A stretch of DNA of 64,000 nucleotides from Patiria pectinifera (lineage: Eukaryota > Echinodermata > Asteroidea > Valvatida > Asterinidae): the NCBI GenBank assembly GCA_029964075.1, contig CM057140.1:8574643-8638642 (forward strand), in the 5' to 3' direction. This document shows, one piece after another, positions 5,798 to 59,588 of the stretch. Position numbers and translations under genes: made by a program. The notes below the pieces were generated by a model, which saw nothing but the letters and a program-made list of their open reading frames with translations, did no database searches and was not told where the DNA came from. How positions within the stretch are numbered: the first letter of the stretch is position 1; each line of letters begins with the position of its first letter.

Positions 5798-6227
5798 ATG
5801 TTGTCTGTGGTTATCTTGGTCGCCTTGTGTACGGCCATTGGAGCCGAATTCGTAAGAAACCCCGAGAGTGTGACAGTGAATGAAGGAGACAATGTTACTT
5901 TGACCTGTGAAGAAACAAGCCATTATGAGGCTCAATCTTCGTGCACTGGGTATGTTTACTACTGGAGGAGGAATATTTCAACTGTTTTAGGGGAATACCT
6001 CACAAGCTGTATCTCAGTTGAAACTGCTTACAATGATCGAATGACAGTTACTAAAGACGGTGGTCTTTATACTCTCAATATTCACAAAGTGCGCCCCGAA
6101 GATACTGGCGATTACTATTGTTACATATATTACAATCGCTTTTTTGATTACTATTCAGACACTGCTCTTTTGACAGTTAATGCACTACCAAGGAACACTC
6201 CCAGTCCTTCACTGACCGTGTCTGAAG
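5798..6227 (+). CDS. Ig-family membrane receptor gene A, exon 1 (signal peptide + V domain)
   Basis: This exon encodes the first 143 residues of a predicted 324-residue type I membrane protein. Residues 1-16 form a hydrophobic signal peptide. A V-type Ig domain follows: canonical cysteines 37 and 108, core Trp 56, and the strand-F motif EDTGDYYC at 101-108. Cys49 and Cys71 form an extra pair placed as in genes B, C and D, a pattern also known from CD300/pIgR-like V domains. The frame ends in a stop 11 bases past an AAG/GTGAGT donor at 6227/6228. Joined to the acceptor CCACAG at 7757 the reading frame continues exactly (phase 1, Asp144). The ATG at 5798 is the only one preceding the signal peptide. 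Ligand and function are unknown; a surface immune-type receptor is inferred. Confidence 0.82.
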
Positions 6228-7757
6228 GTGAGTCTTAAAATATACTAAAAATGTAAAAAAGCCTGCACTTTGTTCCGACATTTTCTATCCACAATGCGAA
6301 AAACAAAATAAAAGAAAAACGGTACATGATACAGTCACGTCATTTCTTTCGAACAGAAAGGTATGAACAGAAGTCATTGGTCATAAACTATGGATTGAAA
6401 CCCCGTCAATAATTTTCAAAAATTTTAAAAATCATTACGAAGTTATACCAGTACCTGATAATGATGGGAGCAATGGACAATTATGCGCCCAAGACGAGTT
6501 CAGCGATAGCCTAAAGTTCGCACTCGATCTGCGATCATTCTATGGGAACGTTCAATTCAATTCAGAACATTTATTTCCACACCCGCAACAGCAATAATGA
6601 CACAGGACTAATACAATCATGTAGACACTTAATGTAATGCTAAATGAATGTCAAAATTACACAGGTTAAATACATACAGGTATAGAGATATGTACATGTA
6701 TATCAGGCTTCATTGCTTCCAGGCACCATATAACCCCACTTCACCGTTGGAATCCCTCAGTCTCCTGACGACGGGCAGAGCATACTGTCCGAAACGTTGA
6801 GTACCCTCCGGTTCTTTTCAGAACCACACATACTCACAAAAGAGATTTTGCCACATGGCGCTACCGCAACAACATAGATGGTATGTGATCTGTACGACCA
6901 TTGCAAACAGAGGTCACGGCTAGTTATTCCGAAATAAAACAAGAGTCTTAGTCAAGATCAAGTTGAAGGGAAGCAGGAAATGAACAACAGATCGTTAACG
7001 TTCAGTACCACATTGTAAACACGCACCTTACTCGATTTCCCACGACCTTGAACTGGTAACTTTCGTTCAGTTGCACTTCTCGTGAACTCTGACAAACTCG
7101 ACAATTTAATTTCTGACTGTTTTTCAACTCGTGAATAATGTATTTTAGTTTGCCATTTCCTGTTCATGTTTGGTGTCTGCAACCCACTGAGAAGAAACTT
7201 TCCTTTGGGTTGCTCTTGCGCGCCAACATTCGTTCTGCGAGTCGGACTGGTTCCAAGTCCCTATATTACTTTTTAATCAGATAGGCTCTGGAACCAGTCT
7301 ATCCTGTGATAACTGAATTATTGTCGGGCCGCAAAAAAATTCAGCAGTTATTCCATGGTAGTTATTCCAGTCTTTTTTATATCTCATACAAAAGTGAACA
7401 ACCTTGCATTGCTAGAGAATGGCAATTAAAAATTTTTAAATCTATTTAATTCGGGGTAAAAATCGAGGAAAAGCAACGAACAATGATCTTTAATCATATG
7501 ACTTTTTCACAATGAAATCAATATAATTGTTCGCACTGTCAGACATGGTGTATTGAAATCCCATTGAGACCATGGTATGTTGAGACCAAACAGTCTTCAA
7601 CTTTATGTAGGTAAATAAATCAATGAAACACTAGAATTTTGAATATGACACGTGACGCCGTGAAGTTTTTATATACTAAATAAACAGGTGAGAAAGTTCG
7701 GTTATGAGTAGGAATAGACCCACATAATCCTTTCGATACTTTCGACCGTTTCCACAG
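6228..7757 (+). other. Intron of gene A
   Basis: It begins GTGAGT and ends TTTCCACAG. About 6541-6720 looks like the AT-rich tail of an old retroelement, and CCGAAACGTTGAGTAC near 6792 resembles a word common in retroelement 3' parts. The inverted words GACTGGTTCC (about 7227) and GGAACCAGTC (about 7290) suggest a small TIR element. No further Ig-type exon was recognised, although gene D, which shares the tail, has a second Ig domain. Confidence 0.65.
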
Positions 7758-8302
7758 ATTCTAATAGCCGCACGTCGGCGGTGTATGAGGAGTTTCCCAC
7801 CCAAGGCAGCTCTGCTCTGACACATACACCGGTTGCCTCGACACAAGGAGTCACCTCTATCACAGAGTCAAACGACACCACTTTCTCCGGTAGTAATTCA
7901 TCTGAAGGTCTCACGTTTGGGGTAGTCTTTGCAGGCACTCTTGCCTTGATTTTCCTTCTCCTTGTCGTCGTACTCTCACGCTGCTTGTTGAAGTATAAAA
8001 AGAAAGCTGAACAATCGCATCAAGCTCAGAATCCCCTTCGAAAAGATGGGTGCACCGGTTCTACGAGAGCCCTGGAAAATTCACAGACGTACCAAGACCT
8101 TATACAAGAACCTCGGCTACACCACACGTACCAAGACCTTCAACAAGATCCTCGGGTACACCTTGGCCTTCCAAACAGACGGGACAACATCGTGGGATTC
8201 GTCTACGCGAACATGAACCCAGGGCAACCTGCTGAAGGCAATGAGACGACGCAGGGTGGCACTGGTGAGCAGACACTCTATGAAATTCCTAATGCCCTGT
8301 AA
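7758..8302 (+). CDS. Ig-family membrane receptor gene A, exon 2 (stalk, membrane span, tyrosine tail)
   Basis: This exon supplies residues 144-324. A Ser/Thr-rich stalk (about 145-193) leads to a strongly hydrophobic span at about 194-218 and a basic stop-transfer KYKKK at 222-226. The tail has four tyrosine boxes: YQDL at Y255 and Y268, with nine residues between the boxes (one more than the usual ITAM spacing of 6-8); YANM at Y293, matching the YxxM form bound by PI3K SH2 domains and the YxN form bound by Grb2; and YEIP at Y318. Span and tail are nearly the same as in gene D at 29.6 kb while the V domains differ, so the tail module is shared. No typical polyadenylation signal follows closely. 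Signalling roles are inferred from motifs only. Confidence 0.8.
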
Positions 8303-11300: not shown

Positions 11301-11600
11301 ATTCGCAGCGCGGGACATTTTGATAGTGTTCGTTTTTCCGGTCAGTAGTTTCGTAAGCGTATGATTCGAGTATCATTTTGCACTTTTCTTTTTCTTTTGT
11401 CAATATGGTGTTTTAGTAAGGCGGCAGGCTACGCCCAATCTATAACAAATTAGCTCAAGTCGACTACAGAGTACTGACACTCATTGAAATGGGCCATGTT
11501 TTGTCGACCGTAAACTTGAGAAATGGACTCTCCATGGCCAACTCTAAGTGTCTTTGTTGATTTTGTTCTCTAAACTCTGTTGATAAAAGATATTCAGCAA
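8303..11600. other. Non-coding region with old repeats
   Basis: AT-rich intergenic DNA. About 10060-10690 is a diverged copy of sequence at 33000-33480 and 52340-52810 (shared words GGTACGAGTGTTTTTGTCAGTC, TATAATCTGCATG, AACAACTGTTTTATTCTG). At 10735-10790 a short GGGGGCCTACGAAAA motif is repeated three times. The open frames here, including a 152-residue one on the minus strand across the duplicated block, are not conserved in the other copies. Confidence 0.5.
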
Positions 11601-12745
11601 TATTTTCTTAACTTTCAGTGCGCGTTACAATTTCAACTGTGGCATTAATCTATCACCGATTTCGACACAAGGGAGCTTAATTATTTCACACAAAATGTAT
11701 TAAGTGCTTTAACAATAATAAAGATTATGACATTAAAAATTACGAGCTGACGCATTTTACACCGGTCAAATCAACCAGTTTTGCGGTCATAAACACTAAA
11801 CAAACTGAAACAATTATGTATTTTTATAATCAAAATTAAAACAAAAACATTAAGGCACAGTGACTACGTCCGTAAAGAAATCATAATACGGTAATTATAA
11901 AGCTGACCAAAGACATTGACTGTTGCGGGATTGGAACGTGAGACCGGTCGATTAACTGGTTGAGGTTCAAATCCAACTCCGGTTAATTTGTTTTGTCCCC
12001 CTATTTGAACATAGTCATATGACATAATGAGGAACCGCCAACATAGGGCGGCAAGGATAGCTCAGTTGAAGGTTGCAGGTTCAAACCCAACTTCAGTCAA
12101 TCGCTTATTTAACAGTTAATAATAACATTTAATCATAAATTAATTTTTTTAATTTGTCTTAACATTTGTTTACTAATATTCAGCATTTTGCGATACAAAT
12201 TCAAACATTTATGCATGAACGATTACTCAAACAAAAATAAAGGTAGGCCTACATAGGAACATTTTGTTTGTTTCCGAATTTGTTTTATGTTTGAAGCAAC
12301 AAAATCTCTACAAAAAAATCTTAAAGGGACACCGCGTCCTGGAATACGCCCAATTGGGCTACAAAACGCGCTCAGTGAACGAAGAACGAAACGATGATAG
12401 GATATAAATATCCACACAACTATCCTTTAAAAACCGGGCGCCTTTGTTGTATTCTTGTGTTATTCGTGCGAGAACGACTTTCGGGGTTTCCACGTTTTGG
12501 ACTCCCAAAAGTTGGGCTGTTTGTGCTAGTGATTCCAGCCGTAAGGGAGTCGCCTTTTGCGGACGTGCAAGAATGATATCAGTCTATGATATCATTGAAC
12601 TTGAGAAATACTACGATGGGCCTTATGCATGAGTTGGCCATTTTTGTCGAGTTCCCTACATGCATTTCATTAATAAAATTGTGTACTGTTGAATATGATG
12701 GCGCCAGACTATTTATGCAGGCATATAATTTTTATATTATTATAA
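11601..12745 (+). repeat. Tandem array unit 1 (1145 bp)
   Basis: First of three direct repeats that start TATTTTCTTAACTTTCAG. It shares with unit 3 a segment around 12340-12580 (AATACGCCCAATTGGGC and later CGCCTTTTGCGGACGTGCAAGAA) but lacks the roughly 600 bp that follow that segment in unit 3. It ends with the shared TGATATCATTGAACTTGAG to GCAGGCATATAA segment. The open frames in it are broken differently in the other units, so it is judged non-coding. Confidence 0.82.
12046..12092 (+). repeat. tRNA-like A-box/B-box relic in array unit 1
   Basis: GGATAGCTCAGTTG resembles a tRNA D-arm (A box) and GGTTCAAACCC a T-arm (B box), but only a few bases lie between them, so anticodon arm and acceptor pairing are absent. 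A second B-box-like word, GGTTCAAATCC, lies about 80 bases upstream. It may be a SINE relic or a chance resemblance; it is not a functional tRNA gene. The same pair recurs near 13192 and 14750. Confidence 0.4.
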
Positions 12746-14303
12746 TATTTTCTTAACTTTCAGTGCGCGTTACAATTTCAACAGTGGCATTAATCTATCA
12801 CCGATTTCGACAAAAGGGGAGCTTAATTATTTCACACAAAATGTATAAAGTGTTTTAACAATAATACAATTTATGAAATTAAAAATTACAGCTGACACAT
12901 TTTACATCAGTCAAATCAACCAGTTTTGCAGTCATAAAAACTCCACAAACTGAAACAGTTATGTTTTTTTATAATTAAAATTAAAACAAAAAAACACAAA
13001 GGGACACTGACTACGTCCGTAAAGAAATCATAACACGGTAATTATAAAGCTGACCAAAGATATTGACTGTTGCGGGATTGGAACATGAGACCTGTCGATT
13101 AACTGGTTGAGGTTCAAATCCAACTCCGGTTAATTTGTTTTGTCCCCCTAATTGAACATAGTCATATGACATAATGAGGAACCGCCAACATAGGGCGGCA
13201 AGGATAGCTCAGTTGGAGGTTGCAGGTTCAAACCCAACTCCAGTCAATCATTTATTTAACAGTTAATAATAACATTTAATCATAAATTTATTTTTAAAAT
13301 TTGTCTTAACATTTGTTTACTAATAGTCAGCATTTTGCGATGCAAATTCAAACATTTATGCATGAACGATTACTCAAATAAAAATAAAGGTAGGCCTACA
13401 TAGGAACATTTTGTTTGTTTCCGATATGTTTGAAGCAACAAAATCTCTACAAAAAAATCTTAAAGGGACACGCCTTTTGCGGACGTGCAAGAAATCATAT
13501 ATTGTGCATTGGTGATTGGTCACCGCTGTTCGTGAGCTGTAAACATGTGTAATACCAGACACACACAATATGTATCGTACATTGTATGAAAACCGACAGA
13601 AAACGACAGGAAACACGCATCCTACTCCGCCGTGTCCGACGTAAACAGTCGGGGTCGTCTTTTCTCGGGAACGGTAAGACATTAGGTTGGTTTCCTTTCA
13701 ACCAGATATTTGAAATAGGATAAGTAATCGATCCCCAAAAAATGAAATTTTGGGGGATTTCAAGACGCAGTGCCCCTTTAAGATGGGTGCATTGCAACTA
13801 ACTTGTTAGTGGATACTAAACAGTTTGAGAAAACAGAGAAAACGTATTCACAATTATTGGGATATTGTAACTAAATTCCGTTGCAAATGCAGGCACATAA
13901 AAAACTGTGCCCGCGGGCATATTCTCTTTAACCAGTTAAATAGTTGTTTTCTTCCGAACGATACCACTTCAGATGGAATAATTTCACAGGGTATTTGGTA
14001 CCAGTCCTGTCTTCAATTTCAGCAAGTGATTTTTCTCATTAAATCGGTACAGGCACGTTTTCGGGTAATGGCAAATGTACCTACTTGCCTTTAAAAATAA
14101 TCGCATGTAAGGTTTACTTCTAAAAAAAATTGTGTTTCAGTCTGTTATATCATTGAACTTGAGAAATACTACGATGGGCCTTATGCATGAGTTGGCCATT
14201 TTTGTCGAGTTCCCTACATGCATTTCATTAATAAAATTGTGTACTGTTGAATATTATGGCGCCAGACTATTTATGCAGGCATATAATTTTTATATTATTA
14301 TAA
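12746..14303 (+). repeat. Tandem array unit 2 (1558 bp)
   Basis: Starts with the same word as unit 1. After AAAGGGACAC near 13470 it jumps straight to GCCTTTTGCGGACGTGCAAGAA, so it lacks the roughly 200 bp present there in units 1 and 3, and it then keeps the ATCATATATTGTG to CCAGTCCT segment that unit 1 lacks. Otherwise it closely matches unit 3. No conserved protein frame. Confidence 0.82.
13192..13238 (+). repeat. tRNA-like A-box/B-box relic in array unit 2
   Basis: Same arrangement as in unit 1 (GGATAGCTCAGTTGG, then GGTTCAAACCC after a few bases). It is non-functional as a tRNA because no anticodon arm can be drawn. Confidence 0.38.
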
Positions 14304-15955
14304 TATTTTCTTAACTTTCAGTGCGCGTTACAATTTCAACAGTGGCATTAATCTATCACCGATTTCGACAAAAGGGGAGCTTAATTATTTCACACAAAAT
14401 GTATAAAGTGTTTTAACAATAATACAATTTATGAAATTAAAAATTACAGCTGACACATTTTACATCGGTCAAATCAACCAGTTTTGCAGTCATAAAAACT
14501 CAACAAACTGAAACAGTTATGTTTTTTTATAATTAAAATTAAAACAAAAAAACACAAAGGGACACTGACTACGTCCGTAAAGAAATCATAACACGGTAAT
14601 TATAAAGCTGACCAAAGATATTGACTGTTGCGGGATTGGAACATGAGACCTGTCGATTAACTGGTTGAGGTTCAAATCCAACTCCGGTTAATTTGTTTTG
14701 TCCCCCTAATTGAACATAGTCATATGACATAATGAGGAACCGCCAACATAGGGCGGCAAGGATAGCTCAGTTGGAGGTTGCAGGTTCAAACCCAACTCCA
14801 GTCAATCGCTTATTTAACAGTTAATAATAACATTTAATCATAAATTTATTTTTAAAATTTGTCTTAACATTTGTTTACTGATATTCAGCATTTTGCGATA
14901 CAAATTCAAACATTTATGCATGAACAATTACTCAAATAAAAATAAAGGTAGGCCTACATAGGAACATTTTGTTTGTTTCCGAATTTGTTTTATGTTTGAA
15001 GCAACAAAATCTCTACAAAAAAAATCTTAAAGGGACACCGCGTCCTGGAATACGCCCAATTGGGCTACAAAACGCGCTCAGTGAACGAAGAACGAAACGA
15101 TGTTAGGATATAAATATCCACACAACTATCCTTTAAAAACCGGGCGCTTTTGTTGTATTCTTGTGTTATTCGTGCGAGAAAGACTTTCGGGGTCCACGTT
15201 TTGGACCCCCAAAAGTCGGGCTGTTTGTGCTAGTGACTCCAGCCGTAAGGGAGTCGCCTTTTGCGGATGTGCAAGAAATCATATATTGTGAATTGGTGAT
15301 TGGTCACCGCTGTTTGTGAGCTGTAAACATGTGTAATGTCAGACACACACAATGTGTATCGAACATTGTATGAACACCGACAGAACACGACAGGAAACAC
15401 GCATCCTACTCCGTCATCCTACTGCTAAACAGTCGGTGGGTCGTTTTTCTCGGGAACGGTAAGATATTAGGTTGGTTTCCTACCAACCAGATGTTTGAAA
15501 TAGGATAAGTAAACAATCCCCCCAAAAATGAAATTGTTGGGGATTTCAAGACGCAGTGCCCCTTTAAGATAGGTGCATTGCAACTAACTTGTTAGTGGAT
15601 ACTTAACATTTTGAGAAAACAGAGAAAACGTATTCACAATTATTGGCATATTGTAACTAAATTCCGTTGCAAATGCAGGCACATAAAAACTGTGCCCGCA
15701 GGCATATTCTCTTTAACCAGTTAAATAGTTGTTTTCTTCCTAACGATACCACTTCAGATGGTATAATTTCACAGGGTATTTGGTACCAGTCCTATCTTCA
15801 CTTTGAGCAAGTGATTTTCTCGTTAAATCGGTACAGGCACGTTTTCGGGTAATGGCAAATGTACCTACTTGCCTTTAAAAATAACCGCATGTAAGGTTTA
15901 CTTCTAAAAAAAATTGTGTTTCAGTCTGTTATATCATTGAACTTGAGAAAATTTA
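14304..15955 (+). repeat. Tandem array unit 3 (fullest copy, about 1.65 kb)
   Basis: It contains both the segment missing from unit 2 (AATACGCCCAATTGGGC to GGGAGTCG, about 15035-15255) and the segment missing from unit 1 (AATCATATATTGTG to AACGGTAAGATATTAGG onward). It is the best guess at the ancestral unit. The repeated identity ends at ATTGAACTTGAGAAAA near 15955. Confidence 0.8.
14750..14797 (+). repeat. tRNA-like A-box/B-box relic in array unit 3
   Basis: Third copy of the GGATAGCTCAGTTGG / GGTTCAAACCC pair in identical array context. It has no anticodon arm and is non-functional as a tRNA. Confidence 0.38.
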
Positions 15956-20919: not shown

Positions 20920-22260
20920 ATGTGTACCATGTTGCCACTTGTTACCATGCTCCTGTCTATTTTTGTGTGTGTGGCAAACGGCGGTCACTTTTTCCTCCAA
21001 CCGAGCAGCACTGAGGTGATCGAGGGAAGTACTGTAACATTCACTTGCGGCACCAGGTCTGTAGTTAATTGCCCTGGTGATGGCATACAGTGGCATAGAT
21101 ACATTGCAACAACGAATTTTGTTGCTAAATGTTACAGGGTAGAGCCCAACTCTGAGGAGCGGGTGACTGTTGAGCTTGATATGCGTACTGGAAAGTATCA
21201 GCTTCATATCAACAACGTGCGGATAGAAGACAGTGGGGATTACTGGTGTCTCCTCTATTTTGATGATTATCAACACGCTTCTAACCATGCCTTACTGGTA
21301 GTAAAGTCAACTCAATTGTCGTATTTGCCATCAACTGATCCCTCTACTGTTACACCTGACTTTAAAACATCTGTGGTATACGGAAACACTGTTGACGATT
21401 CATCGTCTTTTACATCGCAGGCGCAAGACGAATCTCCCACCACAGACACTTCTGAGGAGCAATCAACAGACGGTTCACCATCCACTTCCGAATCACAAGA
21501 CGAATTCATCACCACCATGTTCATGCGGCAACACGAACATGCATCGCCTCTTATGGCTTTGACACCAGATCAGTTCATCCCATCCACCCAAACCGACTTT
21601 ATCAGCACAAAACCCAGCCCACTACCCGCAGCAACAGCGACATTACAGCAAAACCCCACCAACAACGAAGACTCAGTACGTGAAACAGGCAACACATCTC
21701 TTACCAGAATAAGACCCAGACACACCACAGGCCCTGATCTGCCTCAAGTTTCCATCCGAACGTCACAAGACCCCAAACCCGACGATGATGAAGACAACGG
21801 TAGTGTCTCTCAGCCATATCCAGTATGGATCATCCTCGGTTGCTCCCTCGCTCTTGCCCTCCTTCTGGTTGCCATAGTTTCTTGTACGAGATTCCTGGTC
21901 AAGAAAACTCGAAAAGTCGTGAGATCACGCAATGCGCAGGAGAGCCAGGGTCAGGGACAACCCGGCGATGAGGGAGTGACGGCTTCCACGTCTGTGTTAC
22001 ATACCAATACCATCTACGAAGGTCTGGCACAAGACTCGGAGGCTCAACTCGACCAGCAGGATACGAGAGAGACGCCCGTGGATGAGGCATACCCAGCGGT
22101 CTTGTACGCCGCACCCGACAAGACTGGACGGGGTGTGATTCGCCATTACACGGCGCCAGTGATAGGCAATAACAGCAGAGCTAGCGTGGCATCGGTGATT
22201 GGCACTTCAGTTGTTGAAGGAGTTACCACTAGTGACCCAATCTACGCCAAACCATATTAA
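20920..22260 (+). CDS. Ig-family membrane receptor gene B (V domain, stalk, span, YxxP-rich tail)
   Basis: Starting at ATG 20920 the product is 446 residues; upstream in-frame codons read through a splice-acceptor-like pyrimidine tract, so this ATG is preferred. Signal peptide 1-20. V-type Ig domain about 22-129: canonical Cys43 and Cys110, extra pair Cys51/Cys71, Trp58, and EDSGDYWC at 103-110. A long Ser/Thr/Pro-rich stalk (about 131-300) looks heavily O-glycosylated. Membrane span about 302-323 is followed by basic KK and KVVRSR. Tail tyrosines: YEGL (Y365), YPAV (Y391) and three YxxP boxes, YAAP (Y396), YTAP (Y410) and YAKP (Y442). YxxP is the Crk-type SH2 recognition form; this assignment is by motif only. 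The coding sequence is one intact exon, and gene C is its close paralogue with a damaged tail. Confidence 0.85.
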   Translation: MCTMLPLVTMLLSIFVCVANGGHFFLQPSSTEVIEGSTVTFTCGTRSVVNCPGDGIQWHRYIATTNFVAKCYRVEPNSEERVTVELDMRTGKYQLHINNVRIEDSGDYWCLLYFDDYQHASNHALLVVKSTQLSYLPSTDPSTVTPDFKTSVVYGNTVDDSSSFTSQAQDESPTTDTSEEQSTDGSPSTSESQDEFITTMFMRQHEHASPLMALTPDQFIPSTQTDFISTKPSPLPAATATLQQNPTNNEDSVRETGNTSLTRIRPRHTTGPDLPQVSIRTSQDPKPDDDEDNGSVSQPYPVWIILGCSLALALLLVAIVSCTRFLVKKTRKVVRSRNAQESQGQGQPGDEGVTASTSVLHTNTIYEGLAQDSEAQLDQQDTRETPVDEAYPAVLYAAPDKTGRGVIRHYTAPVIGNNSRASVASVIGTSVVEGVTTSDPIYAKPY

Positions 22261-23701: not shown

Positions 23702-24339
23702 CCAGTGTGGCCACTGCTTGAAAAAAATTTCAAGATCTTGAAAAATTGAGACCCAACTTGAAAACTTGAAGAAAAAAAAATGAAAAAGCAAGAAATCTTG
23801 AAAATTTTCAACTAAAAGTACAAGACCATATGTTTTGTAGAAACTTTGACAACTTTTTCCACTGAACACCCGAGCTTTTTAGCGACTTTTATTTTTACTT
23901 CGTAATTCTTTTAGCATTGGCGCGCTATACTTACGGTCAGACCCTGCAGTGTATAATGTAAGCTATAGGCTAGGCACTGCATGACGTGCGCTTCATTAGA
24001 TGCGCTCTCCGGGAGAGGGCATTGTGACCGTTTTAGCTGATTTTCGGCTAACTTTGACAGAATTTTTGTTAAAAAAAGAGTTTGACAGAAAATTTGACAG
24101 AATGGATTTTTTTGTCAGATTTCTGGCAGGATTCTGCAAAAATAGTATTTTGACAGAAAATTAACAGCAAATTTGAAAAAAAGGCACATTTGTTGAAAAG
24201 AGTTTCAATCCTTTCCAAAAAACCTTTGCATAATGGGACAGGTTGGCTGGTCTAGTAATTTTCATAGGCTTGAAAAATCTTGAAAACTTTTAGATGGCGA
24301 TCTTAAAAAAAAACTAAAAAAACAGAGTGGCCACACTGG
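23702..24339 (+). mobile_element. 638-bp TIR element inserted in block 1
   Basis: Perfect 14-bp terminal inverted repeats CCAGTGTGGCCACT / AGTGGCCACACTGG. The interior is A/T-rich, with many CTTGAAAA and TTGACAGAA words and no coding capacity. The paralogous site in block 2 (about 37180) is empty: GCAATGCTG, T run, GCATTCCTGC reads through there. The duplicated bases lie in the T run, so the target-site duplication (about 4 bp of T) is ambiguous. A non-autonomous DNA transposon of unassigned superfamily. Confidence 0.82.
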
Positions 24340-24661
24340 TTTTTGCATTCCTGCTTATCGAGCCACGCTCTGTGATGCATATGACATTCACTTATATTTC
24401 TCCATCCAGTTTGACGGTTGATGCTGGCAGCAATGTCACACTGACTTGTTAGTCCCCATATGCAACCGGTTCCTGCCTCTATGACCTATCACGGTACCAC
24501 AGACGAAACGGGCAAAGGACAGAACAAAGATTAGTCTCTTGTACCACGGTGCAAATTGCTCACCTCTTGACACGGATAACAGCTCGAATAGGCGACCGTG
24601 ATTATGATATTAGACTTAACCAGATTGATATCCGTACCGTAAAGCCAGAAGACAGTATTTA
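24340..24661 (+). pseudogene. Dead V-domain exon of gene D type, copy 1
   Basis: It closely matches gene D from its signal peptide (TTTTTGCATTCCTGCTTATCG) through TCCATCCAGTTTGACGGTTG to GCCAGAAGACAGT. It is interrupted by a TAG replacing the Trp after the first canonical Cys (TTGTTAGTCCCC near 24448), and it stops before the second canonical cysteine, where a fold-back element begins. The second Ig domain, span and tail of gene D do not follow. Confidence 0.78.
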
Positions 24662-26639: not shown

Positions 26640-26931
26640 ACTACGCGGTATCATCTCCAACCAACACCGACAGCCGTGACGTGAGCGGCCAGCCCCGAAG
26701 CACCGAGGGGACAGACGCAGCGAGTAGCGGCCCAGTCATCTACTCAACTACCCTACCTCCGGACGGGACACGGCAGGAGCAGACGGTGAATATGCTCAGT
26801 CAAAAGACACCAGTCGACAACTGGGACTCGTTTACTCTGACTTGGATCTCCAGGAGCAAACAGAGGCCAGTCAGATGATTCACGAACGCGCCGAGAAGAC
26901 ACTCTACGCTGAGGTTCGTGGTGATGTATAA
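26640..26931 (+). pseudogene. ITIM/ITSM-type receptor tail cassette, copy 1 (frameshifted)
   Basis: Homologous to the intact cassette at 38385-38642. The first half (PVIYST box) reads in one frame from 26681. The second half, with LVYSDL (ITIM-type LxYxxL) and TLYAEV (ITSM-type TxYxxV) 24 residues apart and ending ...EVRGDV then TAA at 26929-26931, reads in another, so one indel separates the parts. No signal peptide, Ig or membrane-span exon is recognisable immediately upstream, so this is a tail exon whose parent gene is either unseen or lost. Confidence 0.7.
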
Positions 26932-29589: not shown

Positions 29590-30873
29590 ATGCTGTTTTT
29601 TGCATTTCTGCTTATCGGAGCAACGCTTTGTAATGCAAACGACCTTTTCACACGAATTTCTCCATCCAGTTTGACGGTTGATGCTGGCAGCAATGTCACA
29701 CTGACTTGTTGGTCCCCGTATGCAACCGGTTCCTGTAACTTTCAACTATCGTGACGAAACGGGCAAATGACTGGAGACAGATTAGTCTCTTGTACCACGG
29801 TGCAAATTACTGGGCTTGAGACACGGATAACGGCTCGAATAGACGACCGTGATAATGATAATAGGCATTACCAGATTGATATCCGTAACGTACAGCAAGA
29901 GGACAGTGGGCAATACTGGTGTTATGTTAATCTTGGCAACAGTGGTCCTGGTGGTATGTCTGGTGAGATCTCACTGACAGTCAATAATCGACTACCAAGG
30001 ATTCCTCCTTCGTGTAAGGTAGACCCTCCACTTCCCACTGTCGGTACAAGAATCTCATTGAGATGTACTCTCTCCCAGGAAGATCCACTGAGCATCTTGA
30101 CATGGTACCAAACACCATCATATGGTCCTGCTGAGCAAATAGGTCCTGCACGTGAAACAAATTCAAGAAATGTCAGTTCGATTGAGCTCGTGCTGAACAA
30201 AACTGACAACATGAAGGAGTTCACATGTGTAGCCGGTCCCGATATCAGTGGTCCAAAGTGCTCCCTGACACCTCTCCAAATACCAACAGTTGTTTCTGTC
30301 TCCCCTTCATCAGTTACTTTGTCGGCACATGAGGAGTCTCCCACACAAGGCAGCTCTGTTCAGAAACCCGATGTCTCGGCCATAGACAGCGCATCACCCA
30401 CCCCCAATTCACATAACGAATTCATCTCGACAACAGAATCAAACAACATTAATTTCGCCGATTGTAATCCATCTGAAGGTCTCACGTTTGGGGTAGTCTT
30501 TGCAGGCACTCTTGCGTTGATTTTCCTTCTCCTTGTCGTCGTACTCTCATGCTGCTTGGTGAAGTATAAAAAGAAAGCTGAGAGATCGCACCAAGCTGAG
30601 AGTCCCACTAAAGAAGACAGGTGCACCGGTTCTACGAGAGCTCAGGAGAATTCACAGACGTACCAAGACCTGCAAGAACCTCGGGTACACCACACGTATC
30701 AAGACCTTCTACAAGATCCTCGGGTGCACCTTGGCCTTCCAAACAGACGGGACAACACCGAAGGAACCGTCTACGCGAACATGAACCCAAGGCAACCTGC
30801 TGAAGAAAATGAGACGACACAGGATGGCAGTGGTGAGCAGACATTCTATGATGAAGTTCCTAATGACATGTAA
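29590..30873 (+). pseudogene. Ig-family membrane receptor gene D (two Ig domains, ITAM-like tail) with one in-frame stop
   Basis: From ATG 29590 a single frame of 427 residues is broken only by TGA at codon 55. Signal peptide 1-16. V domain: Cys40/Cys111, extra pair Cys49/Cys68, EDSGQYWC at 104-111. Second Ig domain about 138-235 (Cys159/Cys213, Trp172). Stalk, then span about 298-322 and basic KYKKK. Tail: YQDL (Y358) and YQDL (Y370) separated by eight residues, which satisfies the ITAM spacing; YANM (Y395); and TFYDEV (Y420), an ITSM-like TxYxxV. The stop sits where the V-domain core Trp belongs: compared with the paralogous exons at 24.5 and 37.3 kb, nine bases are missing, leaving TCG-TGA. 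Everything else is open, so the loss is either recent or an assembly/haplotype artefact. An AATAAA lies at 30895. Confidence 0.82.
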
Positions 30874-34489: not shown

Positions 34490-35602
34490 ATGTTGGCACT
34501 TATTAGCTTACTTCTCACTACTCTGCTCTGTGCGGCGAGCGAGGATCACTTTTTCCTTCATCCAAACAGCACTGAGGTGACCGAGGGAAACAATGTAACA
34601 TTCACTTGCGGCACCACGTCTGCCTTCAATTGTCCTGCCAAGGACAGATTACAGTGGCAAAGGAACGTTACAACATTTGAGGTTCTAGCAAAATGTTCTA
34701 AAGTAGAATCCAACTTTGACAGGCGTATGACTGTCGAACTTGATCAGAATGGAAACGAGTATCATCTTCATATCTACAACGTGCAATTAGAAGACAAAGG
34801 CACATACTGGTGTCAGCTGTTCAGTAATCCAAAAACTCTCTCCCGCGAAGCAGTCCTCACGGTAAAGCCAATTCCATCGACGTTTTTACCGTCAACTGAT
34901 CCTTCCGTACTTCCGGAGTACTTTAGTACAAGCAGTGGATACGAAAGCAGTGTTGACAACTTGTCATCTTTTACCGTGACACTGACGACACCAGACAAAT
35001 CTCCCACGGACATTTCTGAGGAGAAACCAACAGCAGATGGTGCACCTTATCCCGAATCACAAGACAAATTCATCACCACCACTGAATACAACACCAATAC
35101 AAGGTACACCAGTACACTACCCGAAGCAACAGCAACAACACAGCAAAACCCAATCAGCAACGACGACTCAGTACGTGAAACAGGCAACACATCTCTTGTC
35201 ACTATAGTACCCTCGCACTCCTCACACCCCGATCAGCCTCAACCTACTATCCCAACGTCGCAAGACCTCGATAGTCAGTTATATCCAGTATGGATTATCC
35301 TCGGATGTTCACTCGGCCTTGCCCTCCTTCTGGTTGCCATAGTTTCTTGTACAAGATTCCTGGTTAAGAAAACTCAACAAGTCTCGAGATCACGTGAGGC
35401 AGACGAGAGCCAGGGTCAGGGACAACCCGGCGATGAGGGAGTAACGGCTTCCACGTCCGTGTTACAAATCAACCCCATCTATGAAGGTCTCGCACAAGAC
35501 TCGGAGGCTCAACTCGACCAGCAGGATGCGAGAGAGACGCCCGTGGATGAGGCATCCAAGGGGTCTTGTACGCTGCACCCGACAAGACTGGACGGGGTGT
35601 GA
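34490..35602 (+). CDS. Ig-family membrane receptor gene C, paralogue of B with a frameshifted tail
   Basis: From ATG 34490 the frame gives 370 residues. Signal peptide 1-17. V domain: Cys40/Cys108, extra pair Cys48/Cys69, Trp56 and EDKGTYWC at 101-108. Ser/Thr/Pro-rich stalk about 127-263, span about 266-288, and YEGL at Y331. The upstream in-frame codons (from 34322) lack a signal peptide, so the internal ATG is preferred. At 35555 one base is missing relative to gene B (GCATCC versus GCATACCC). The frame then ends after 15 unrelated residues, dropping the YPAV, YAAP, YTAP and YAKP boxes. The abandoned frame is still open and conserved as far as a TAG at 35737-35739. It is either a truncated-tail variant, a recent null, or a sequencing or assembly error. 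Confidence 0.8.
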   Translation: MLALISLLLTTLLCAASEDHFFLHPNSTEVTEGNNVTFTCGTTSAFNCPAKDRLQWQRNVTTFEVLAKCSKVESNFDRRMTVELDQNGNEYHLHIYNVQLEDKGTYWCQLFSNPKTLSREAVLTVKPIPSTFLPSTDPSVLPEYFSTSSGYESSVDNLSSFTVTLTTPDKSPTDISEEKPTADGAPYPESQDKFITTTEYNTNTRYTSTLPEATATTQQNPISNDDSVRETGNTSLVTIVPSHSSHPDQPQPTIPTSQDLDSQLYPVWIILGCSLGLALLLVAIVSCTRFLVKKTQQVSRSREADESQGQGQPGDEGVTASTSVLQINPIYEGLAQDSEAQLDQQDARETPVDEASKGSCTLHPTRLDGV

Positions 35603-37173: not shown

Positions 37174-37497
37174 ATGCTGTTTTTGCATTCCTGCTTGAGC
37201 CACGCTTTGTGATGCATATGACATTCACTTAGGCCTATATTTCTCCATCCAGTTTGACGGTTGATGCTGGCAGCAATGTCACACTGACTTGTTGGTCCCC
37301 ATATGCAACCGGTTCCTGCCTCTATGACCTATCGTGGTACCTCAGACGAAACACGACAGAACAAAGATTAGTCTCTTGTACCACGGTGTAAATTGCTCAC
37401 CTCTTGGCACGGATAACAGCTCGAATATACGACCGTGATTATGATAATAGACATTACCAGATTGATATCCGTAACGTAAAGCCAGAAGACAGTAGGC
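37174..37497 (+). pseudogene. Dead V-domain exon of gene D type, copy 2
   Basis: It starts with an ATG in the same context as the gene D start (GGCAATGCTGTTTTTGCATTCC) but the signal-peptide frame is shifted. The V-domain body matches gene D and keeps the Trp after Cys and the core Trp-Tyr (CTATCGTGGTACCTC) that gene D has lost. A CAA to TAA change (ACGGTGTAAATTGC near 37387) terminates it, and the exon ends before the second canonical cysteine. Confidence 0.78.
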
Positions 37498-38340: not shown

Positions 38341-38384
38341 TACGCGGTATCATCTCCAACCAACACCCGGCCGACAGCCGTGAC

Positions 38385-38642
38385 GTGAGCGGCCAGCCCC
38401 GAAGCACCGAGGGGACAGACGCAGCGAGTAGCGGCCCAGTCATCTACGCAACCTGTCACCCTACCTCCGCACGGGACACGGCAGGAGCAGACGGTGCAGA
38501 TGGTGAGCATGCCCGGCCAGAAAACACCGGCCGACAACACATGAATACTGAGGGACTCGTATACGCTGACCTGGATCTCAATCAGATGATTCACGACCGC
38601 GCTGAGAAGACACTCTACGCTGAGGTTCGTGGTGATGTATAA
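38385..38642 (+). CDS. ITIM/ITSM-type receptor tail cassette, copy 2 (intact exon, partial gene)
   Basis: An 85-codon frame opened by GTG is probably an internal exon, because the frame is open further upstream and no ATG begins it. It encodes a hydrophilic tail with PVIYAT, then LVYADL (ITIM-type LxYxxL), then TLYAEV (ITSM-type TxYxxV), and ends RGDV-stop. The ITIM and ITSM tyrosines are 18 residues apart here and 24 in copies 1 and 3. In vertebrate inhibitory receptors such boxes recruit SHP phosphatases or SAP-family adaptors; applying that here is inference. No Ig or membrane-span exon is recognised next to it, and the nearest V exon (37.2 kb) is dead. Of the three copies only this one has no frame damage. 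Confidence 0.6.
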   Translation: MSGQPRSTEGTDAASSGPVIYATCHPTSARDTAGADGADGEHARPENTGRQHMNTEGLVYADLDLNQMIHDRAEKTLYAEVRGDV

Positions 38643-53019: not shown

Positions 53020-53150
53020 GAGGGTATGCATTCCTTTCAGGTGCCAGGCATGCGGATCACACAATACATTCAAAGAATCTATAGTAATTCAAATGAGGTA
53101 GTGTAGCATGGGTATATAAACCCCCGGCTGAAAGGAGCCAGCATCTTTTC
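53020..53150 (+). repeat. DIRS left inverted terminal repeat with TATA box
   Basis: 131 bp, reverse complement of 57717-57847. It contains TATATAAA at 53113-53120, about 97 bp before the gag-like ATG, so the repeat probably carries the element's promoter. Confidence 0.88.
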
Positions 53151-53209
53151 TTCGTGTGATAGGCATAGCGGACAGAGCTGAACAGTTCAGCTCCTTGTTC
53201 ATTGCAATA

Positions 53210-54358
53210 ATGAATACTGACTCGTCCGAAGACGACATTAAATCACTCCAACCAGGCCAAGGTAAGCCTAGTTCTCGCCGGGACATGGATGCTCGGTTAC
53301 AGGCCAATGCCGACGGTATCCAGAAGTTATCGGCTTCTGTTAATGCCATGCAAGAGATGCTGGCATCAGTGGTTCATTCCCGTGACTTATCCGGACGTGC
53401 GAAGCACGCCGGCCCCAGCAACTCCGCTGGTAGTCCACCCCAGTTTGAGATCTCGGCTCAATACGACGAGGAGTTTGTAGACGAGCTACTAAGTCAGGAA
53501 GCTGTGGCATACGACCCAGCTCAATCTGAGTTTGATCTGACCAGTGTACTGGCGGATAACCAAGCCATTACAGCGCAAGCTGATTTTGACGTTCTTCCAA
53601 GTGAAGATATTTACAATGACAGTGAGGCTAAAGGCCCCGAGATATTTAGTAACTTAGCAGAAAGAGCTGTAAAAGCGGTAACTTTGCCAATCAAGAAAGA
53701 GACGTATGCAAAAATTGCAGAAAAATACGTTACACCGTCAAATGCGGTAGCTGTGTCGGCACCCAGAATAGACAGTGAACTTTGGGGAACCATCCCCGCC
53801 TCAGCTAGATCCAAGGACGTGATCTTACAGAAAATCCAAAAACAAGTTATCAAAGGTTTGCTCCCTTACTGCAAAATGTTGACTGAATTGCGTGATGCAA
53901 CAAAGTCAGGCCAAGTTGTGAACATTGACAAGTTAAAGGAACTTGCTTTAGATGGCATTACCCTTGCAGGGAACGCCTCTTATGAACTAAGTATGAGACG
54001 TCGAGAGGAACTGAAACAAGTCCTCAACCCCATGTATCGCGGTCTGTGTTCCCGCAATACTCCCATCTCAGAAATGCTGTTCGGGAAAGACATGAATAAT
54101 ACAATGAAACAGGTAGCTGAAGCCTACAAAGCAGGCAAAAAATTGACCTCAGACGAGAGGAAAAATCAGTCTTCCTATCGCCGTTCCTATGTGCCTTATA
54201 ACCAGCAGAGAACAGGCAAAGGCTCGTCCGCAAACTACAGCGGGGTTCTCGGGGTTCAAATGTTCCCCAACACAGCCGTGGGCGATCCACCTGGCAGCAG
54301 AGATCTAACAAACCATCTACTGCAACGAAGCCTACTTCAGAAAAAAACGGGTATGTAA
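53210..54358 (+). CDS. DIRS ORF1, gag-like protein
   Basis: 382 residues from ATG 53210; the frame is open 54 bases upstream but only from a GTG. The N-terminal part is acidic and Ser-rich. The central and C-terminal parts are helical, including a KDVILQKIQKQ stretch and an ELSMRRREELKQ stretch, as in first ORFs of other DIRS elements. No zinc knuckle is visible, which is usual for DIRS gag. It is followed after 20-30 bases by the RT frame. Function is inferred from position. Confidence 0.75.
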   Translation: MNTDSSEDDIKSLQPGQGKPSSRRDMDARLQANADGIQKLSASVNAMQEMLASVVHSRDLSGRAKHAGPSNSAGSPPQFEISAQYDEEFVDELLSQEAVAYDPAQSEFDLTSVLADNQAITAQADFDVLPSEDIYNDSEAKGPEIFSNLAERAVKAVTLPIKKETYAKIAEKYVTPSNAVAVSAPRIDSELWGTIPASARSKDVILQKIQKQVIKGLLPYCKMLTELRDATKSGQVVNIDKLKELALDGITLAGNASYELSMRRREELKQVLNPMYRGLCSRNTPISEMLFGKDMNNTMKQVAEAYKAGKKLTSDERKNQSSYRRSYVPYNQQRTGKGSSANYSGVLGVQMFPNTAVGDPPGSRDLTNHLLQRSLLQKKTGM

Positions 54359-54381
54359 AATCAAACCTACTATCCTCTCCA

Positions 54382-56215
54382 TTGGCAAGTGCCGGGAGAC
54401 TAAAATTACACAAGGGCGATTGGTCTCAAATCACTTCTGATAGGTGGATTCTAAACACCATATCAGGTTGTAAAATTGATTTCTTGAGCTGTCCAATTCA
54501 AACCTCAAAACCTCAAAAGAAATCCTTCTGTGATCAAGAATCACTTGTGATCAATACTGAGATTAGTGAACTGCTGCACAAAGGTTCAATCAGAGAACTT
54601 CCTCTGGCTAAATGCCAGTTTCTGTCAAACTTTTTTCTGATAGCGAAAAAGACAGGTGGATTGAGACCAGTTATTAATTTGAAAGATCTTAACAAATTTG
54701 TGTCGTACGAGCACTTCAAAATGGAAAATATCAAGCTCGTGAAAAACCTAATTCAAGTTAATGACTTTCTCACTTCAATTGACCTGAAAGATGCTTATTT
54801 TTCTATTCCAATGTGTGAGAAGGATCAACCTTATCTTTGCTTCTCTTGGGCAGAAAAATGTTTCTGCTTTACTTGCCTACCATTTGGCTTATCATCAGCC
54901 CCTAGAATTTTTACTAAGGTTATGAAACCTGTAGTAGCATCAGCGAGAAGTCGAGGTATTCGCTTGGTCATTTATTTAGATGACATCCTCATCATGTCTT
55001 CTTCAAAAGAAGAAAGCACCACAAACACTGATTTCGTGATAAACCTACTCCAAAATCTTGGATTTGAAATTAATTATAAAAAAATCTTGTTTGATCCCTG
55101 AAACAAAAGTGACATACTTGGGATTCGTAATCGACTCGGAAACTATGTCAATTCACATCCCTAAAAGTAAGGTGGAAAAGGTCAAGTTGGAATGTAGACA
55201 GTTAATTTCCAAAAAATCAGTAAGCATCCGCCAACTGGCCAGATGTATTGGCCTCATTGTTTCAACGTTTGAGGCCTTTCCGCAAGGAAAATTACATTAC
55301 CGACAGATGGAAGTTGCCAAAGTTAAAGCACTTCAGTCTGAATCGGGTAATTATGATGCCCATATTGATACCACACCATTACTTGAAGAAATTCAGTGGT
55401 GGTTGACGGTTTCCTCTGATGGAGTATATTGTAATATAAAATTACCATCCATCGATATTGTTATCTCCACAGATGCCAGTAAACTGGGATGGGGAGCAGT
55501 CTGTCATACAGACGATTCTTATGCACAGGGTAAGTGGAAAGACATCCATAAAAAGCTTCATATTAATGTGTTGGAGCTCCTGGCTGTGCAAAATGCACTG
55601 CTCAGTCTGTGTTCACAGGTGCAAAATGCACATGTTCTCATAAAATCAGATAACAGCACGGCTGTATCATACATCTCCAAAATGGGGGGATCTATGGTTT
55701 CCTTAAACCAGATTTCGACCGCAATTTTTAAGTGGTGTTTGCAAAAGAATATTCACTTATCTGCAACTCACATTGCCGGAAAAACCAATGTCACGGCCGA
55801 TCTTCTTTCTCGTAAAGAGTTGAACAAAGAAATAAGTATCAAGTGTGTAGTCTTTGATCATATTGTCAAGCATACCTTCTGCCCAGACGTTGACCTTTTC
55901 GCATCTTGTGAAAATCGAAAATTGAATCAGTATGTTTCATGGAAAAAAAGATCCATATGCTTGGGCTGTAGATGCGTTTACAATTTCATGGGGGAATTTA
56001 TCTCCTTATATTTTCCCTCCATTTTGTTTGCTACCCAGAATCCTGGACAAGATTTCCAGAGACAGGACAGACTTATGTCTAGTAATCGCCCCCTTGTGGC
56101 CAACCCAAGCCTGGTTCCCTCAGCTACTCTCAATGTGTGTAGCACAACCAATCCAACTGCCACAGACTGCTCTGAACCAACCTCAGCAAATTCAACCTCT
56201 GAATCTAAGATTAGC
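54382..56215 (+). pseudogene. DIRS ORF2, reverse transcriptase-RNase H-methyltransferase-like region, two frameshifts
   Basis: Reverse transcriptase motifs are clear in the first frame: SIDLKDAYFSIP, LPFGLSSAPRIF and the catalytic YLDD (about 54979). The frame is lost in an A7 run at 55078-55084 and resumes one frame over with RNase H motifs: STDASKLGWGAV (about 55470), SDNSTAVSYI (about 55650) and HIAGKTNVTADLLSR (about 55770). It is lost again in an A7 run at 55943-55949. The next frame carries the DPYAWAVDAFTISW segment in the region where DIRS elements have a Dam-methyltransferase-like domain. Each break matches one extra A, so mutation and homopolymer sequencing error are both possible. 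The end overlaps the recombinase frame, as is usual in DIRS. Confidence 0.88.
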
Positions 56216-57196
56216 CGCTTGGACCATCTCAGGCAACGATGGAAAGCAGAGGGACTTTCGAGTGACGCTACCAAGCTCATCTCAAGATCCTGGAGACAGA
56301 GCACAGAAAAACAGTACGAGTCTGCCTGGAAATGTTAGGTTAGCTGGTGCAGTGGAAGGAAAATTGATCCATTTGCGTCATCTGTTTTAGATATTGCTAA
56401 TTTTCTGGCTCACGAACATTCAGAAGGAAAGTCTTACTCTACCTTAAATTTGTACAGGTCAGCATTATCAATGACTCTGCCTTTAGCAGGAGGTCATCCT
56501 GTTGGGCAACACCCTCTCATTGTTCGCCTACTAAAAGGGATTTTTAATTCCACACCACCAAAACCAAGATATTCAAAAATGTGGAAAGTATCTACTTTAT
56601 TAAATCACATTTCAAGTTTACCTGATAATAAAGATCTTTCGCAACTCATCCTTAGCGAAAAATTGGTTAGTCTGTTGGCTCTCGTAACCGCACAGCGAAC
56701 TCAGACGCTCGCGGCCCTAGACATACGATATTTTGACTTTTCAGATAATTGTTGTTATATTACAGTTATGGAATTACTTAAAACTAACTGTCCTAAGAGA
56801 GGTATCTCTAATAATAAATTAACTCTGCCAGCCTTTGAGGGAAACCAAAAGTTATGCGTTTTTTCAACCTTGAAAGATTACCTTGGCAGAACAGAAAAGA
56901 TAAGAAATTCTGTCACTGAACTATTTATTTCCACTAGAAAACCACATAAAGGTGTGACAACTGGTACATTGGCAAGATGGATGAAAAGTATACTCCTTGC
57001 AGCAGGGATAGACACAAATGTCTATACTGCTCATAGTTTCAGAAGTGCATCAACTTCAACTGCTTTAGCTCAGGGTGTATCACTTCAAGATATACTTCAT
57101 ACTGCAGACTGGACTAATGCCAGTACCTTTGCAAGGTTCTACAACAAACAAACAGAAGATTCGACCTTTGCAGCTTCAGTTCTTAAAGGAAAATAA
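56216..57196 (+). pseudogene. DIRS ORF3, tyrosine recombinase with one nonsense codon
   Basis: The frame runs from about 56216, with LRQRWKAEGLS and SWRQST typical of the DIRS recombinase N terminus, to a TAA at 57194-57196. It is interrupted once, by TAG at 56336-56338, where relatives usually have Trp. Active-site residues are visible: R in AQRTQTL (codon at 56696), HSFR (His codon at 57032, Arg at 57041), the HTADW segment near 57100 and the nucleophile Tyr in ARFY (codon at 57140). It would integrate the circular cDNA. Apart from the stop the frame is undamaged. Confidence 0.88.
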
Positions 57197-57504: not shown

Positions 57505-57623
57505 TGCATACCCTCTGAAGACTTGTACGAAGTGTTATGTAATAGCATTCAAAAATTATGTGAATATGAAATATGAAATATAATTTGAATTCTATGAATA
57601 ATAATGAAGTACAAGTCGAAGAG
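57505..57623 (+). repeat. DIRS internal complementary region
   Basis: 57505-57544 is the exact reverse complement of the 40 bases at the left end (52991-53030). 57552-57623 is the reverse complement of the right end (57845-57916). In DIRS models this region templates circular cDNA formation. Confidence 0.9.
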
Positions 57624-57716
57624 TTCCCATAACATAGTGCGCTAGTTTACTCAGAATTGATGTTGTTTACACCCACCCTATAAAAAAAGGGGTTCGTTCT
57701 TTTTAATCTGGACTTT

Positions 57717-57847
57717 GAAAAGATGCTGGCTCCTTTCAGCCGGGGGTTTATATACCCATGCTACACTACCTCATTTGAATTACTATAGATTCTTTGAATG
57801 TATTGTGTGATCCGCATGCCTGGCACCTGAAAGGAATGCATACCCTC
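57717..57847 (-). repeat. DIRS right inverted terminal repeat
   Basis: Reverse complement of the left repeat. It carries the TATA box in antisense orientation (57747-57754), so transcription from here would run leftward into the element. Confidence 0.88.
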
Positions 57848-57916
57848 TTCGACTTGTACTTCATTATTATTCATAGAATTCAAATTATATTTCATATTTC
57901 ATATTCACATAATTTT

Positions 57917-59270
57917 AGAATTTTACAGTTGAATGACCGTGCACTTTAACTTGAATGAAACATGTAACTTTAAACGAGCCAAGTATTAAGTAGTGAGTAT
58001 TAACACTGGGTCATAGCGATGAGCATGAGTCAACTTAAAACCATTTCCCCCCGTTTTTGAACTAGAAGAACTTACTCCAAAAACTACTACATTTTATGGC
58101 ATATAAAAACTACTTTACATGCACAACAATGATAAAAGCACGTGTGCTTTCCCAATATATAGTGTAATCTTCACTGTACAATACATATTCAAATTATTCT
58201 TATACATAAAGTTATCTGTGAAAGGCATTTTTACTGAGGAATATACAAGTTAAATTACGATGAGAAATGAACAATCCTCGATGTATCACAACTAGCCTTG
58301 GTCAAGGCTATCGTCATTATTCGTCCGTACGCGGTAAACGAATGGCGGCATATCCTCGCTATGCAGTGCATTAAAAATACAGAGCGAGACTCATACGACC
58401 TCATGCGGACACTATTTGAAATCTTTGAAAATTTCTACCATTTGGAAGACTTTCAGGGTTTATTTTCCCTATAATGATCCAAGTATATGCTAAAAGTTGT
58501 TGCGATATGTTCATTACTTTTCGCTGAAATTGGAAAAATAGGCAATTTTGAAAATTCTAACACTGGCGTGCGCAATAACTATCAATCTTTTCAAGCCTCA
58601 CGAATATTAATGAGGTTACTATCCATTACGGTGTGCAGTAATCAATTGCATAAATGCCTCAGATCAAACGTTCAGATCAAAAAGCCATGTTTTGGGGGGT
58701 TCACGAATTTCAAGGCTCTATTACATCGTCTTAGTACGTAATCGGATTAGCTTTCCCTGACAACGACCGACGCTTTGCCGTATCAACCATATGGCTGTCT
58801 CAGCCGCCTCAGACTCATTTTCCCACCAATAAATGCACAGACAGCCTGAAAATGTTGTCTCTGGATAGCAGTTGAAAGGCAGGCACAGCAACCAAAGTTG
58901 AAATATAATCAGCGCGGCTTGGTTTGAAACAACACTTCAAATTCTCCCTGTCTCTGTTCAGTGCTCACTGCATGATCTCTGAGATTTGACTGACACTCCC
59001 TCAAAGTCCTTACATGCTAACAGAACTTTCACTGCATACCATTGCTCGTTCATGAAGCGCACAAACACAAAAGAAAGTAAAAGTGGTGCATCCTGAACCT
59101 ATAATCGTAACCAAATTAGCAAAATTAGCATAAGGAGGAAAGATCATAAAAGAGAATTATAAATATTCATGAGTATTGGCCTACTTTAAAGTGAAGATTG
59201 AAGGGGCTGCATCTACAAAATAAACATATAAATGGTTAAATAGACTCAAATTCTGACACGAGGGATACGA
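57917..59270 (+). repeat. Segmental duplication block 3, proximal non-coding part
   Basis: From about 58163 it matches 22808-22950 (CTGTACAATA, GTTATCTGTGAAAG). From 58414 it matches 25238-25480, and from 58680 it matches 37775-38330 of block 2. The V exon seen in blocks 1 and 2 is absent, so block 3 carries a deletion there. No gene. Confidence 0.65.
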
Positions 59271-59312
59271 CACTACGCGGTATCATCTCCAACCAACTCC
59301 GACAGCCGTGAC

Positions 59313-59588
59313 GTGAGCGGCCAGCCCTGATGCACCGAGGGGACAGACGCAGCGAGTAGCGGCCCAGTCATCTACGCAACCTGTCACCCTACCTCCGCAC
59401 GGGACACGGCAGGAGCAGACGGTGCAGATGGTGAGCATGCCCGGCCAGAGGACACAGGTCGACAACACATGAATGCCGAGAGACTCTTTTACTCTGACTT
59501 GGATCTCAAGGAGCAAACAGAGGCCAGTCAGATGATTCACGACCGCGCTAAGAAGACACTCTACGCTGAGGTTCGTGGTGATGTATAA
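59313..59588 (+). pseudogene. ITIM/ITSM-type receptor tail cassette, copy 3 (nonsense codon)
   Basis: Same frame as copy 2 from GTG 59313 to TAA 59586-59588, but CGA has become TGA at 59328-59330, near the start of the exon. Downstream the tail is intact: LFYSDL (ITIM-type) and TLYAEV (ITSM-type) 24 residues apart, ending RGDV. Because the rest of the frame is preserved, the nonsense change looks recent, unless an alternative acceptor skips it. Confidence 0.7.

Follow-up and report, generated by a model that had tools for sequence, protein, structure and literature searches.

Do neighboring sea star genes display similar variable (V) domains on tails of opposite signaling sign? Vertebrates provide the best-known examples of paired activating and inhibitory V-set receptors. 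The invertebrate receptors with immunoreceptor tyrosine-based inhibitory or activation motifs (ITIM, ITAM) that are described in excerpts of PMC12065747 (excerpts are likewise the basis for the other papers cited here) come from a tunicate and a cnidarian, both from allorecognition. The question is raised by a 64,000-base stretch of contig C12 in a sea star genome (G000, 613.5 Mb; contigs carry C numbers), positions C12:8574643-8638642, referred to below as the window. The original prediction listed four V-type immunoglobulin (Ig) membrane proteins (A to D) and three orphan tail cassettes (E to G) there, within a span of 54 kb. The reading that we favor, with a probability of roughly 0.6, is that the window is a slice of a cluster belonging to a large family of mostly single-frame V-set receptors, whose tails would be opposed in sign and whose V cassettes are exchanged. 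V-set receptors with tyrosine-coded tails and the swapping of V domains and tails were borne out. Pairing was not, as far as the window's own genes are concerned, because only B is unbroken among them. The paired-receptor interpretation is better supported by neighboring genes than by the window; those relatives outside it, in the same genome, are designated P1, P2, H, and by L numbers.

The family is large. A V-set search scored 150 of 978 candidates; 94 of the 150 lie in open reading frames of 300 amino acids (aa) or longer, three of which contain a stop. Merging these with the 77 matches of a protein search gave a list of at least 121 such loci, spread over 12 contigs and including five that contain a stop. 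This list, transcribed by hand, is a lower bound, and its members were grouped by matches rather than by a tree. The loci form several clusters (36 on C6, 35 on C12, 17 on C15, and 16 on C1), and the window sits within the C12 cluster. We read 26 proteins picked for long frames; the tails of L008, L033, L035, and L038 run off the DNA taken, and L039 has a masked stretch. The architecture is that of a type I protein with a V-set domain, up to two further Ig domains, a transmembrane segment (TM), and a tyrosine-rich tail, all in a single open frame in the unbroken members read. An extra cysteine pair, one on each side of the V-domain tryptophan, is invariant in all seven family V domains aligned. 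Only Ig families scored above the Pfam cut-off in the ten receptor proteins scanned. Sequence searches of the PDB returned mostly antibodies, plus pIgR rows for B, which is generic V similarity; the 50 matches listed held no CD300, TREM, or KIR chains, which excludes nothing. A literature search that covered subscription journals thinly found no report of such a family from a sea star or other echinoderm. Further V-set matches, in frames shorter than 300 aa, were seen on C20 (40 of 56 short-frame matches), C21, and C3; these are perhaps a separate, multi-exon V-set group.

Evidence for exchange comes from two ITIM-tailed genes upstream of the window and two relatives of its receptors. P2 (C12:8565976-8567754, 593 aa) is unbroken and runs from V to tail in one frame, as does P1 (C12:8544810-8546609) apart from one TAG in its V domain. 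L004 (C12:8642314-8643606) is an unbroken, ITAM-like-tailed relative of D, and L001 (C12:8526344-8528203) is an unbroken gene related to the V part of A. In a tree of V domains, A grouped with L001 (support 100/99) and P1 with D and L004 (94/94, not starred), whereas in a tree of tails A grouped with D and L004 (100/100) and P1 with P2 (100/99). In approximately unbiased (AU) tests, forced groupings of the V domains of A, D, and L004 (p 9.3e-48), of the tails of A and L001 (p 1.8e-6), and of the tails of P1, D, and L004 (p 9.4e-5) were all rejected. The V and tail trees conflict.

Divergence along P1 gives the same picture. P1 and L004 share 82% of V-domain residues at a synonymous divergence (dS) of 0.157 but only 43% of tail residues at a dS of 0.911, whereas P1 and P2 differ at a dS of 0.635 in V and 0.136 in the tail. 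Measured in 100-column windows, the P1 5' flank starts with 200 columns that are P2-like (73-78% identity to P2 versus 52-56% to L004), and the following 200 columns up to V favor neither clearly (52-61% versus 52-55%). V and most of the C2 domain are L004-like (79-97% identity to L004 versus 55-83% to P2). The switch comes at the end of C2 (92% versus 97% to P2), and TM and tail are again P2-like (89-97% versus 47-71%). V/C2 regions have thus been exchanged between genes with different tails, although the direction of exchange between P1 and L004 cannot be told. Highly similar predicted ligand-binding domains stand on different-tailed genes in P1/L004 and in A/L001, in the first case with a stop in P1 and in the second with A in need of splicing. 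The claim that similar V domains carry swapped tails was upheld by the tree conflict and the P1 profiles.

The tails are enriched in signaling motifs. Twenty-five tails (the relatives, including P1 but not L039, and B, but not A, C, or D) were shuffled 1,000 times with tyrosines fixed and the other residues permuted; because close paralogues are included, the counts that follow are not independent. No shuffle reached the observed numbers of ITIMs (20 versus 5.2 expected), YxxP (42 versus 15.8), Yxx[ILV] (67 versus 21.9), ITAM-like pairs, defined as Yxx[LI]-x6-12-Yxx[LI] (3 versus 0.2), or YADLD-type sites (8 versus 0.0), and 35 of 1,000 reached that of YxN (12 versus 6.7). YxxM was not enriched in these tails (2 versus 2.4; 710 of 1,000). 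Per 1,000 tyrosines, tails and ectodomains had 129 versus 31 ITIMs, 271 versus 31 YxxP sites, and 19 versus 17 immunoreceptor tyrosine-based switch motifs (ITSMs). Strict ITIMs were spread over 11 of the 25 tails. Y[AS][DE]LD occurs in eight, seven of which have a further tyrosine at +20 to +30, four of them at +24. PD-1 and BTLA have some 25 residues between ITIM and ITSM, a spacing that serves the two SH2 domains of SHP2 in tandem. The tail of L034 is weakly like SIT, an SHP2-interacting adaptor (20.1 bits, below the cut-off of 27.6).

We infer from these sequences that the genes are expressed as receptors with tails of opposed polarity. The V domain would bind ligand, a Src-family kinase would phosphorylate the tail, and SH2 proteins would read it. 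An SHP-type phosphatase would dock on tails with LxYADLD and another tyrosine site some 24 residues further along, making them inhibitory; a Syk-type kinase and Grb2/PI3K would dock on tails with YQDL-x8-YQDL and YANM, making them activating; and Crk/Nck-type adaptors would dock on the YxxP tail of B. Exchange of V cassettes would keep V domains similar across genes with opposite tails, as in the vertebrate paired receptors CEACAM1/CEACAM3, and the most likely use would be recognition of microbes or self by immune cells (coelomocytes). Candidate partners are encoded in the genome. Matches to SH2, SH2, and two protein tyrosine phosphatase (PTP) domains follow in that order on the minus strand of C6 (19721609, 19718176, 19698352, and 19694713), which in exon order only would fit an SHP-type gene. 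Likewise only in exon order, SH2, SH2, and two kinase matches on the minus strand of C16 (14080417, 14071536, 14067848, and 14066756) would fit a Syk-type gene. At C14:13.04-13.58 Mb, SH2 and kinase matches are arrayed on one strand, an expanded SH2/kinase gene family, and C3, C17, and C19 hold arrays of many PTP exon matches.

All seven predicted features are present in the window, but several are broken or relics. V-set domains score above the Pfam cut-off of 26 bits in A (46.6), B (40.5), and C (46.5), and the open part of D exceeds the cut-off for V-set and ig; nevertheless, B is the sole uninterrupted receptor frame. This single-exon gene (20920..22260, plus strand, as are all the features of A to G) encodes a V-set domain (E 3.4e-10), a long Ser/Thr/Pro-rich stalk, a TM, and a tail with YEGL, YAAP, YTAP, and YAKP. 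Its frameshifted paralogue C (34490..35602) has a single-base deletion near 35,550 that ends the frame ahead of all three YxxP sites, which lie unread in the sequence to 35721. The label YxxP-rich therefore suits B but not C. H (C12:8647188-8648430, L018/L019), a relative of B and C just beyond the window, carries a different single-base deletion, some 20 bases from that of C, and the same three YxxP sites are lost; this double truncation may be coincidental or may reflect repeated selection for a shorter tail. A genome-wide class of B-type tails was considered and rejected: full ones were found at B, at C, and in a single gene beyond the downstream edge of the window, and other C12 genes gave weaker matches.

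A and D were described as ITAM-like, and both have the YQDL pair. D (29590..30873) comprises V, a C2-like Ig domain, stalk, TM, and a tail with YQDL-x8-YQDL, YANM, and TFYDEV, with an in-frame TGA at the V-domain tryptophan position. Its tail ends in an ITSM-like motif and is therefore not purely ITAM-like. A consists of two fragments that are in frame with each other solely after splicing. The 5' part (5798..6227) encodes a signal peptide and V-set domain (E 4.4e-12), and the 3' part (7758..8302) encodes stalk, TM, and a tail with YQDL-x9-YQDL, YANM, and YEIP. The V part has 88% DNA identity to L001, with the second Ig domain deleted, and the homology stops at a donor-like CTGAAG|GTGAGT, where L001 carries CTGAAGGAGAG. 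From 7851 onward (TM and tail), A is 86-87% identical to D and L004, and parts of 6337-7541 are 71-78% like intergenic DNA upstream of P1 and P2. A is thus a chimera. An acceptor-like CAG|ATTCT ahead of its tail recurs ahead of a relic module at C12:8726443, and a two-exon gene is plausible. The tail of A has a YQDL spacer of 9 and TLYEIP, as opposed to a spacer of 8 and T[FL]YDEV in D and L004. Such A-type tails number three (A, D, and L004), with weaker matches in four other C12 genes.

The three orphan tail cassettes exist as sequences but are decayed relics that lack a TM, not spare tails. They match the tails of P1 and P2. E has an L004/D-type V relic (24336..24660) with an early stop that ends before the second V cysteine and a frameshifted P1/P2-type tail relic (26672..26931; LVYSDL, TLYAEV) with no TM seen upstream. 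F has a V relic with stops and the same truncated end (37179..37494) and a tail relic with an open frame and no TM (38376..38642; VIYATC, LVYADL, TLYAEV), in which a 6-aa deletion leaves the tyrosines +18 apart. G (59304..59588) is a tail relic with an in-frame TGA; no V relic of its own was found in the stretch between F and G. We considered and rejected the possibility that E, F, and G could be spliced to V exons, given that P2 is single-frame from V to tail, P1 likewise bar its stop, and that the relics lack a TM and E and F share a V truncation point. D, the V domain of A, and the cassettes all have unbroken relatives within 50 kb of the window.

Most of the window's copies have decayed. 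It is possible, although the odds are against it, that the window by itself is a graveyard of pseudogenes, in which B is the only gene that might still work, and is otherwise now functionless. In favor of this, C, D, E, G, and the V relics of E and F are each interrupted by a stop or a loss of frame, and A needs a putative intron. However, B is unbroken, the acceptor-like site of A is also found at a second relic, and all the copies read come from one sequenced haplotype, which may carry null alleles; such alleles, or assembly errors, could explain the stops in D and P1 and the deletions of C and H. Constraint on the TM and proximal tail of B, C, and H, with ratios of nonsynonymous to synonymous divergence (dN/dS, method of Nei and Gojobori [NG86]) of 0.25-0.43, also argues against a graveyard; the ratios were 0.48-0.58 for V, 0.53-0.90 for the V-less remainder with the stalk, and, on few changes, 0.89-1.18 for the tail past the deletions. 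Tail ratios were 0.31 for P1-P2, 0.62 for A-D, 0.54 for A-L004, and 0.89, on 4 changes, for D-L004. The values for the F and G relics against P1/P2 (0.33-0.57) may reflect constraint predating decay.

Several observations weigh against opposed pairs. Fourteen of the 25 tails lack a strict ITIM and 22 lack an ITAM-like pair, so most members read fall in neither class; two of the three tails with the pair (L008 and L036, but not L004) also have ITIMs. ITSMs were not enriched in the 25 tails (3 versus 1.2 expected; 119 of 1,000 shuffles). The strict ones are in P1, L004, and L037, the P2 site (TLYAEF) being not strict, and among the unbroken members read near C12:8.5 Mb only the putatively activating L004 has one. 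The predicted signaling polarity is not clean: the ITAM-like tail type of D and L004 also bears ITSM-like and YxNM motifs, and P1, the ITIM-tailed gene that shares the V domain of L004, carries a stop. A charged residue occurs in 1 of 26 TM cores, taken as the best hydrophobic 19-mer (Glu in L005, tail 121 aa), and no DAP12-style receptor was seen among the 26 proteins. In this assembly, the genes with matched V domains and opposite tails are imperfect: a stop interrupts both P1 and D, and the two unbroken ones of the four, L004 and P2, have V domains that share 53%. Forcing the V domains of P1 and P2 together was only marginally rejected (AU p 0.0445). Finally, exchange is probably not confined to V, because tails are homogenized too: D and L004 have a dS of 0.011 in the tail versus 0.168 in V, and B and C are 92.6% identical in the tail half versus 75.4% in the V half. 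The mixture of YxxP, YxN, and Yxx[ILV] in most tails, the scarcity of both classes, and this tail homogenization would suit a V-set family without opposed pairs, in which tails are SH2 docking arrays for graded signaling or adhesion and V exchange is ordinary conversion between tandem paralogues. We consider this unlikely, as the P1 tract, which spans V and most of C2, leaves similar V domains on opposite tail classes.

The closest likeness to the paired reading is CEACAM1/CEACAM3 of mammals and the Ceacam pairs of Xenopus, in which tails of the ITIM/ITSM and of the ITAM-like kind sit on similar V domains; in Xenopus, gene conversion is confined to the N exon (PMC5112662). In those genes, V is a separate exon, whereas the unbroken sea star genes read are single-frame, tails are homogenized as well, kinship is apparent at the level of the V-set fold, and polarity is predicted from motifs. 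The vertebrate CD300, TREM, KIR, NITR, and SIGLEC families are likewise clusters of Ig receptors, some inhibitory and some activating. Their activating forms mostly combine a charged TM residue with DAP12-type adaptors, in contrast to the single charged core among the 26 TM cores here.

A role in allorecognition, as for fuhc/FcoR in Botryllus or Alr in Hydractinia, with self discrimination driving fusion or rejection, is quite improbable: the loci are spread over 12 contigs rather than a single locus, the ten receptor proteins scanned with Pfam lack a sushi domain, and sea stars are not known to be colonial. The resemblance that speaks for it is that Botryllus FcoRs are invertebrate type I proteins with a V-type Ig domain, sushi, two C2-type Ig domains, a TM, and a long tail with ITIM, hemITAM, or core-tyrosine motifs, and that Hydractinia candidates, a large Ig-type membrane family, bear ITIM/ITAM-type motifs (PMC12065747, PMC11999971). 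According to the same excerpts, FcoRs use motif-swapping splicing at one allorecognition locus, and the 41 Alr genes lie in one cnidarian complex; the sea star domains, in contrast, are canonical V-set above the Pfam cut-off and occupy many clusters.

Other elements are interspersed with the receptors. A frame at 17456-18529 (minus strand) with PAN/apple (E 6.3e-7) and fibrinogen C-terminal (E 9.7e-68) Pfam domains is predicted to be a fibrinogen-related gene inside the cluster. Consecutive long frames at 53132-57196 (plus strand), the first of which was scanned with Pfam and gave no match, resemble a DIRS-type retroelement when judged by eye. Long interspersed nuclear element (LINE)-type reverse transcriptase fragments (RVT_1, zf-RVT; Pfam) lie at 61458-63754 (minus strand). 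About 570 bases at 39859-40431 form a hairpin-like array of tandem 16-42 base units with mutually inverted matches. Large direct repeats at 11599-15950 (93-98% identity) are a recent duplication, and no receptor sequence was found in them. Elsewhere in the genome, one exon of a SALMFamide precursor carries three peptides, PAGSPVFHSALTY, AFHSALPF, and GYHTGLPF, with GKR after each. These peptides are known from Patiria miniata (PMC3594158); in Asterias rubens, PAGASAFHSALSY replaces the first (PMC4772807). The comparison with these two species suggests that the sea star is a Patiria (bat star), most likely P. miniata; a search for COX1 gave no match.

The broader reading is tentative and falls somewhat short of even odds: that an echinoderm has, genome-wide, more than 100 single-frame V-set receptors whose V cassettes are shuffled between ITIM/ITSM and ITAM-like tails, a paired system on the scale of NITR or KIR, and that this repertoire was either built independently or kept from a deuterostome ancestor. 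If this is true, sea stars would permit a direct test of whether opposed control through ITIM and ITAM, exerted by matched V domains, is pre-vertebrate or repeatedly evolved, because their single-frame genes are easy to clone.

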